From positions 1 through 64,000 of the forward strand of contig CANHQT010000009.1 of NCBI GenBank assembly GCA_947463325.1: a DNA stretch of 64,000 bases, read 5' to 3'. Every line of letters begins with the position of its first letter. Within the stretch, counting starts at the first letter, position 1. This DNA is from Sphingomonadaceae bacterium. GTDB lineage: Bacteria > Pseudomonadota > Alphaproteobacteria > Sphingomonadales > Sphingomonadaceae. This document shows, in pieces, positions 39,000-39,745 of this stretch. Under the pieces are notes generated by a model. The model worked only from the letters and a program-made list of their open reading frames with translations. It was not told where the DNA came from and made no database searches. A program made the translations under genes and the position numbers.

Positions 39000-39046
39000 G
39001 GTTCATCCCTAGGCGGGCAAGCGGCCCCGCGCCACACCTGCGTTAT

Positions 39047-39135
39047 TGGCGAAATACGCGCCACTGGTCAGGAAAAATTCCCAACCCTCGGCATTTCTTT
39101 GGCGCATTAAGCGCAGTAGCGATGGCGGATTGGCG
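39047..39135 (+). promoter_or_regulatory. Candidate enhancer (UAS) half-sites upstream of the sigma-54 promoter
   Basis: The pentamer TGGCG occurs four times in the same orientation: at 39047, 39100, 39123 and 39131. The first two are parts of inverted repeats, TGGCG-AAATACG-CGCCA (39047-39063) and TGGCG-CATTAAG-CGCAg (39100-39116). They sit 20-115 bp upstream of the -24 element, where enhancer proteins of the PspF type usually bind. Meaning is inferred from position and repetition. Confidence 0.4.
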
Positions 39136-39156
39136 GAAATCTGCGGTTTCTTCAAA

Positions 39157-39173
39157 CTGGCACGGCTCCTGCA
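39157..39173 (+). promoter_or_regulatory. Sigma-54 (RpoN) promoter
   Basis: TGGCACG (39158-39164), four bases, then CTGC (39169-39172) match the consensus TGGCACG-N4-TTGC at 10 of 11 defined positions, with GG (39159-39160) and GC (39171-39172) 12 bp apart, first base to first base. A start near 39184 gives a leader of about 40 bases to the small gene at 39225. Proteobacterial phage-shock promoters are classically of this type and the second gene of the unit encodes PspC, which supports the call. Confidence 0.82.
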
Positions 39174-39224
39174 AAACAACTGGCATCCCCGGAAATGGTC
39201 CAGACACATGACAGGAGCTTACCA

Positions 39225-39356
39225 ATGACCCGCTTCGACACCCGTTCGCTTGGCAGCTATGTTGCCGCCGTCGCCATCGCCGTCTGGTCGACAACCATGC
39301 TGTTCGCAGCCACTGCCGTCCCCTCGGTCGCCGCTGTCAGCGCTCTGGCTGCCTGA
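39225..39356 (+). CDS. 43-residue single-pass membrane or exported peptide
   Basis: An unusually short gene directly downstream of the sigma-54 promoter. ATG 39225 has an AGGAG site (39213-39217) and the frame ends TGA 39356, 2 bp before pspC. The peptide opens MTRFDTRSLGSYVAAVAIAV and continues WSTTMLFAATAVPSV to end ALAA. Arg and Asp residues stand before one hydrophobic helix of about 25 residues; AVPSVAA or SALAA could be signal cleavage sites. I know no function. A small transmembrane peptide with PspC resembles PspB/PspD-like partners in size, not in sequence. Confidence 0.65.
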   Translation: MTRFDTRSLGSYVAAVAIAVWSTTMLFAATAVPSVAAVSALAA

Positions 39357-39358
39357 TC

Positions 39359-39571
39359 ATGGCAAACCGCAACCTTATGAAAGGCAATAGTGTGGCCAAC
39401 AAGTTCATGCTCGATCGCACCAATGGCAAGTTTCTCGGCGTCTGCGCCGGTCTCGCCAACAGCTTCGGTATCGATGCCCTGTTCATCCGCATCGCTTTCG
39501 TGGCGAGCGTGCTGCTCGGCTTCGGCCTGCCGCTGATCATCTATTTCGCCATCGCCTTGCTCGCCGACTGA
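39359..39571 (+). CDS. pspC: PspC-domain protein (phage shock protein C-like)
   Basis: A 70-residue protein made of little more than one PspC domain: FMLDRTNGKFLGVCAGLANSFGID then ALFIRIAFVASVLLGFGLP and a second hydrophobic stretch. PspC of E. coli is 119 residues and, with PspB, senses inner-membrane damage and recruits PspA. This short form lacks the C-terminal periplasmic part. Start ATG 39359 is used; GTG 39392 and ATG 39377 are alternatives. It is 2 bp after the 43-residue gene and followed by a terminator, so the unit is just two genes; pspA, pspB and pspF are not here. Confidence 0.88.
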   Translation: MANRNLMKGNSVANKFMLDRTNGKFLGVCAGLANSFGIDALFIRIAFVASVLLGFGLPLIIYFAIALLAD

Positions 39572-39656
39572 TGCTGGCATTCACCGGCCTCAGCGGCCTT
39601 CCCCCGCCCGGCGATGGCGGAACGCGGACCGGTCGGCACCTGCCACCGGCCATACG

Positions 39657-39696
39657 GAAAAAGCCCCACCGGGGATGAACCCGGCGGGGCTTTTTC
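39657..39696. terminator. Bidirectional intrinsic terminator between pspC and rpoC
   Basis: The stem AAAAAGCCCC (39658-39667) pairs with GGGGCTTTTT (39686-39695), with an inner CCGGG/CCCGG stem around loop GATGAA. T-runs stand on both strands, so it can end transcription of pspC (86 bp upstream) and rpoC (50 bp the other way). Confidence 0.92.
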
Positions 39697-39745
39697 ATGT
39701 CTGCGGCCCGACACCGTCTAGCGGCGGGCCACCCGTCCGCTGATC

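Follow-up and report, generated by a model that had tools for sequence, protein, structure and literature searches.

A probable PspF-driven satellite operon of a 43-residue peptide and a tail-less PspC in a Sphingomonadaceae genome

Results and Discussion

A two-gene unit in the genome of a Sphingomonadaceae bacterium (assembly GCA_947463325.1) probably belongs to the Psp envelope-stress regulon as a satellite effector operon driven by PspF. The unit, which encodes a 43-aa hydrophobic peptide and a 70-aa PspC, lies in the 64,000-nucleotide stretch of contig CANHQT010000009.1 that we analyzed (positions 1 to 64,000; hereafter the window). Its promoter, an activator site shared with canonical psp promoters, its conservation among relatives, protein-level selection on the peptide and a complete psp locus elsewhere in the same genome were computed directly.

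Organization of the unit

The -24/-12 promoter, the two open reading frames and the strong terminator proposed in a first-pass annotation of this DNA were all confirmed in the sequence. The parts of the unit are as follows.

39046..39063, no strand assigned: possible second, distal activator palindrome TTGGCGAAATACGCGCCA, read directly from the sequence
39068..39083, plus strand: PspF-type upstream activator site (UAS) TCAGGAAAAATTCCCA, 90 bp 5' of the -24 element, matrix score 13.5
39131..39146, no strand assigned: promoter-proximal palindrome TGGCGGAAATCTGCGG, its -27 position kept in 37 of 51 satellites (defined below)
39158..39173, plus strand: sigma-54 -24/-12 promoter TGGCACGGCTCCTGCA, from a direct sequence match and conservation among satellites
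39184..39224, plus strand: predicted 5' UTR, its start placed from the promoter by the -12 rule
39213-39217, plus strand: Shine-Dalgarno AGGAG of the 43-aa ORF, inside the predicted 5' UTR
39225..39356, plus strand: gene for the 43-aa hydrophobic peptide of a previously unnamed Psp-associated family, from ORF, profile and selection evidence
39359..39571, plus strand: gene for a 70-aa PspC that is missing the C-terminal half of the canonical protein, from Pfam and NCBIfam profiles
about 39655..39697, plus strand: intrinsic terminator hairpin, nearly symmetrical, from folding energy

The distal palindrome has a spacing unlike that of the main motif; tandem sites are seen in relatives and in E. 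coli. The terminator hairpin folds with an energy of -32.8 kcal/mol (z = -5.6), and with its near-symmetry it may serve both directions. Its arms, AAAAAGCCCC and GGGGCTTTTT, lie between the convergent pspC and rpoC genes.

A complete Psp system elsewhere in the genome

The 2.29-Mb assembly (57 contigs) also contains rpoN and, on contig 20, a complete psp locus with pspF, a divergent pspA, pspB and a 124-aa pspC. The PspF encoded there scored 475.9 bits against a cut-off of 443.55 and the PspC 118.1 against the TIGR02978 equivalog cut-off of 104, and PspA and PspB likewise exceeded their equivalog cut-offs. Because this locus is complete, the window unit is an addition to the Psp system. A separate pspFABC locus had been raised as something to look for in the first-pass annotation, and this is it; the annotation was also right that the classical psp set is absent beside the unit, but its description of a detached or simplified output holds only for "detached", since the full set is present on contig 20. 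An absent or simplified Psp system was rejected for the same reason.

Past pspC, the canonical operon (L003 6228-7772; G000 contig 20) continues with four to five consecutive small membrane or coiled-coil ORFs, and the small ORFs there resemble PspB or the PspC tail. PspB duplicates and variants of the pspFABC operon are described in the passages found of a Psp survey (PMC11237479), and the extra PspB-like genes of this canonical operon are like those variants.

A sigma-54 promoter conserved in satellite units

We examined 86 loci, mostly best matches to the window PspC and hence enriched for satellites. A short-tail PspC was present in 61 of them, and a sigma-54 site near the maximum score lay upstream of 53 of these 61 (51 distinct; hereafter satellites), the short-PspC loci that lacked one being mainly those in which the short PspC sits inside a canonical operon. 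Between promoter and pspC, 49 of the 51 distinct satellites had hydrophobic ORFs of 33-48 aa, either one or up to three in tandem, the first of which begins 62-96 nt from the -24 element, with one exception. The same arrangement with clearly related peptides occurs in five relatives from the genus, and in the nearest relative (G225) the unit is tandemly duplicated in the same place, beside the 3' end of rpoC. The initial GGCATC of the predicted 5' UTR is conserved among satellites. Of 49 satellites, 34 have a short mRNA hairpin after GGCATC (17% of shuffled sequences do), for example L055 and L048; a structured 5' leader was also looked for in the window, where the unit's own hairpin has just 3 bp and is not clear, so that it carries no weight in our reading.

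Within the window, TGGCACGGCTCCTGCA is the sole exact match to TGGCAYNNNNNYTGCW. Genome-wide, the -24/-12 pattern alone was not above chance (six matches, against four for a reversed-pattern control), and the activator site was therefore added to the search. The promoter pattern together with a half-site of the activator gave four matches and none in the control. One of the four is the window unit, another is the canonical psp promoter, and the other two fall within long ORFs. No activator site was found at any of the seven non-psp matches checked, namely five other -24/-12 matches and the two non-psp matches to the combined pattern, and long open frames overlie six of these seven. The sigma-54 control proposed in the first-pass annotation gains support from the exact promoter and from its retention upstream of short-PspC loci.

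The activator site

The window unit and canonical pspA promoters have in common a palindrome, TGGYGAAAATTCCCA, which lies some 90 bp before the -24 element. When a motif sampler was run separately on satellite and canonical promoters, it returned the same palindrome in both, roughly TTGGYGAAAATTCCCAA and about 90 bp 5' of -24, and in both the site stands at -90/-91. A matrix was built from 17 canonical psp sites, leaving out the genome's own, and with it 44 of the 51 satellites scored above 95% of the null and 36 above 99%; the best position was -90 or -91 in 40 of the 51. The window site scored 13.5 (null P about 0.006) and the canonical psp promoter of the same genome 17.1; the window site is less regular than most, with TCAG in place of TTGG in its left half.

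The matrix was also applied to E. coli, whose pspA and pspG are known PspF targets according to the passages found of a second Psp survey (PMC9239133). On the 4-kb pspF-pspA locus the intergenic sites TTAGTGTAATTCGCTA and ATGATGAAATTCGCCA ranked highest on the coding strand, and at the pspG locus the top site was GTAGTCAAATTCACCA, upstream of pspG. Because a matrix made from canonical sphingomonad sites recovers these E. coli regions, the shared palindrome at 39068-39083 is very probably a PspF site. With a sigma-54 promoter, a PspF-type UAS, and pspF and rpoN in the genome, regulation of the window unit by PspF and sigma-54 is strongly supported at the level of sequence.

The genome encodes six strong sigma-54 activator ATPase domains, and an activator other than PspF, such as an NtrC-type protein, might in principle drive the unit independently of the Psp response. 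We consider this highly improbable, as the activator site matches those of pspA promoters in both sequence and position and is similar to the regions upstream of psp in E. coli, and the peptide was not found in PspA-less genomes that retain rpoN. PspC was found in 282 of 299 genomes of the same family, mostly in two copies; 14 of 14 PspC-less relatives also lacked PspA, and all kept rpoN. The peptide was absent from all seven PspC-less genomes within the peptide-profile search, and PspA was present in six of the six satellite-bearing genomes tested.

A further palindrome, TGGCnGAAwTynGCCA, lies just 5' of the -24 element in satellites and in the canonical psp promoters of relatives. Its -27 start in satellites is accompanied by a mean of 12.1 of 16 matches, against 9.9 in shuffled sequence.

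A family of small peptides under protein-level selection

The window peptide had no Pfam or NCBIfam match, and together with four relatives it matched no Pfam family at E values up to 1. Searches with the single peptide (tblastn) gave only weak scattered matches, and the family was recovered through PspC loci and a profile. The profile matched 65 of 100 family genomes; outside Sphingomonadaceae, it gave two marginal matches in about 187 genomes, both from other alphaproteobacterial families and situated either across a stop or within a long frame. From profile searches the peptides appear to be confined to Sphingomonadaceae. These proteins are short, alanine-rich and hydrophobic, which makes E-values soft and homology statistics weak. 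A profile built without the window's genus scored the window peptide at only E = 0.9, and its place in the family seems to depend mainly on relatives within the genus.

Pooled over 23 related pairs, pN/pS of the peptide was 0.31, whereas the two alternative frames gave 1.26 and 2.09, and we therefore conclude that the peptide is a real protein; pspC gave 0.17 in the same analysis.

The first-pass annotation proposed the peptide as a partner of PspC and asked whether it always sits before pspC. The association is conserved in the 49 satellites noted above, with as many as three copies ahead of pspC, but the family is not restricted to this position. In most of the loci that were inspected a peptide leads the canonical pspABC operon, and the profile made from satellite peptides recovers several of these leading peptides (L098, 3.7e-6; L091, 1.5e-5; L100, 1.5e-3; L074, 1.2e-3). 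The family also occurs in related genomes in peptide-only operons of one to four genes, which have the same promoter, mostly the same UAS, and no psp gene in the stretch. L011, L175, L176 and L177 have arrays of three to four tandem peptides of 27-35 aa, which are preceded by sigma-54 and PspF-type sites and have no psp gene in the same stretch; two genomes have two such arrays each.

Two other roles for the small ORF were considered. It might be a leader that couples or tunes pspC translation, its peptide having no function of its own: in relatives the ATG of pspC often overlaps the stop of the small ORF (ATGA), whose last codons contain the Shine-Dalgarno, and in the window pspC starts 2 nt past the peptide stop and has no clear Shine-Dalgarno. 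A leader would be expected to show no selection and always to precede a regulated gene, yet the amino-acid sequence is under purifying selection, tandem copies are separated by spacers, peptide-only operons exist, and the copies that head pspABC often stand well before pspA, which makes this explanation improbable. We give equally little credence to an exported or toxin-like peptide whose hydrophobic stretch is a signal peptide. In many relatives the hydrophobic stretch is indeed followed by a small-residue motif (APAS or GPA), and the tails are 5-15 residues long, but the window copy lacks a conserved A-x-A motif, tails are nearly absent from some members, and the peptide has no immunity-type partner.

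The tail-less PspC

The 70-aa protein belongs to the PspC domain family (PF04024; 57 bits against a cut-off of 25) and falls short of the full-length equivalog (TIGR02978; 51.9 bits against 104, aligned over positions 3-59 of 121) because it ends after the membrane domain. The invariant GK..GVC.G core is retained, as are the conserved R, G and Y positions. No solved structure was similar to it by sequence, and an AlphaFold model (mean pLDDT 64) indicates only two helices, at residues 24-36 and 40-69. In Sandarakinorhabdus-type genomes (L057, L074, L075, L120, L123) the short-tail PspC is found within the canonical psp operon, which suggests tail loss or exchange between loci.

Since the segment it lacks belongs to the signalling protein, the short PspC is more likely to act at the membrane than as a sensor that communicates with PspA and PspF. 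Together with the peptide it could also form a feedback brake, the two proteins binding PspB or full-length PspC and so weakening what is signalled to PspA and PspF. The short PspC would resemble a dominant-negative form, keeping the membrane-domain motifs while the C-terminal segment is gone, and its predicted inducer is the very regulon to be damped; peptide-only operons, however, have no PspC to serve as a decoy, and we regard such a brake as rather unlikely. We favor an effector rather than a sensor role for the unit, which we infer from the missing C-terminal segment, the peptide-only operons and analogy.

Proposed mechanism and relation to known Psp systems

Under the satellite-effector reading, envelope stress would free PspF, encoded on contig 20, from PspA; PspF would then bind near 39068-39083 and activate sigma-54 polymerase at 39158-39173. 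The transcript would give a single-pass membrane peptide and the tail-less PspC, the latter probably through translational coupling. Both products would insert into the inner membrane, where the PspC domain and hydropathy predict them to be, and serve there as effectors or accessories. We infer the effector role, the insertion into the membrane and the induction by stress from these sequences. More broadly, and more tentatively, Sphingomonadaceae may possess an extra Psp effector arm, in which tiny lineage-specific membrane proteins lead PspF-driven operons (pspABC, satellite pspC and peptide-only arrays) and might act with tail-less PspC or PspA to keep the membrane stable, so that its protection would be separate from signalling through PspB/PspC.

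The closest known parallel is pspG of E. coli and Yersinia, which the passages found of PMC9239133 present as a detached, PspF-controlled sigma-54 unit for a small membrane protein outside pspABC. The window unit likewise has a separate PspF-type promoter and a small protein that is hydrophobic by hydropathy only. Unlike pspG, the peptides have no Pfam match to PspG and are not members of that family, and the unit comes with a tail-less PspC and also exists in forms with tandem peptides or with peptides only. The short PspC carries the PspC domain like canonical PspC (TIGR02978/PF04024) and differs in lacking the C-terminal segment. The peptide is also like E. coli PspD in being a small protein from a psp operon, but it has no sequence match to PspD and comes first in the operon, whereas PspD follows pspC. 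In the passages found of the two Psp surveys (PMC9239133, PMC11237479) there is neither a leading peptide nor a separate sigma-54 peptide-pspC unit, and a partial literature search found no relevant paper on Psp in sphingomonads, which is weak evidence of novelty.

Given a promoter design and a peptide family that recur across Sphingomonadaceae, this ecologically important alphaproteobacterial family seems to have an arm of a known stress system that has gone undescribed. The small proteins of this arm belong to a family without a Pfam or NCBIfam model and are likely to be missed by ordinary annotation. It has long been asked what roles PspC and the small Psp proteins play beyond signalling, and here evolution seems to have split the parts, leaving a PspC without the post-membrane segment and a tiny peptide that also stands alone in the regulon. 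The satellites thus offer natural separation-of-function constructs, together with a defined and testable PspF regulon.
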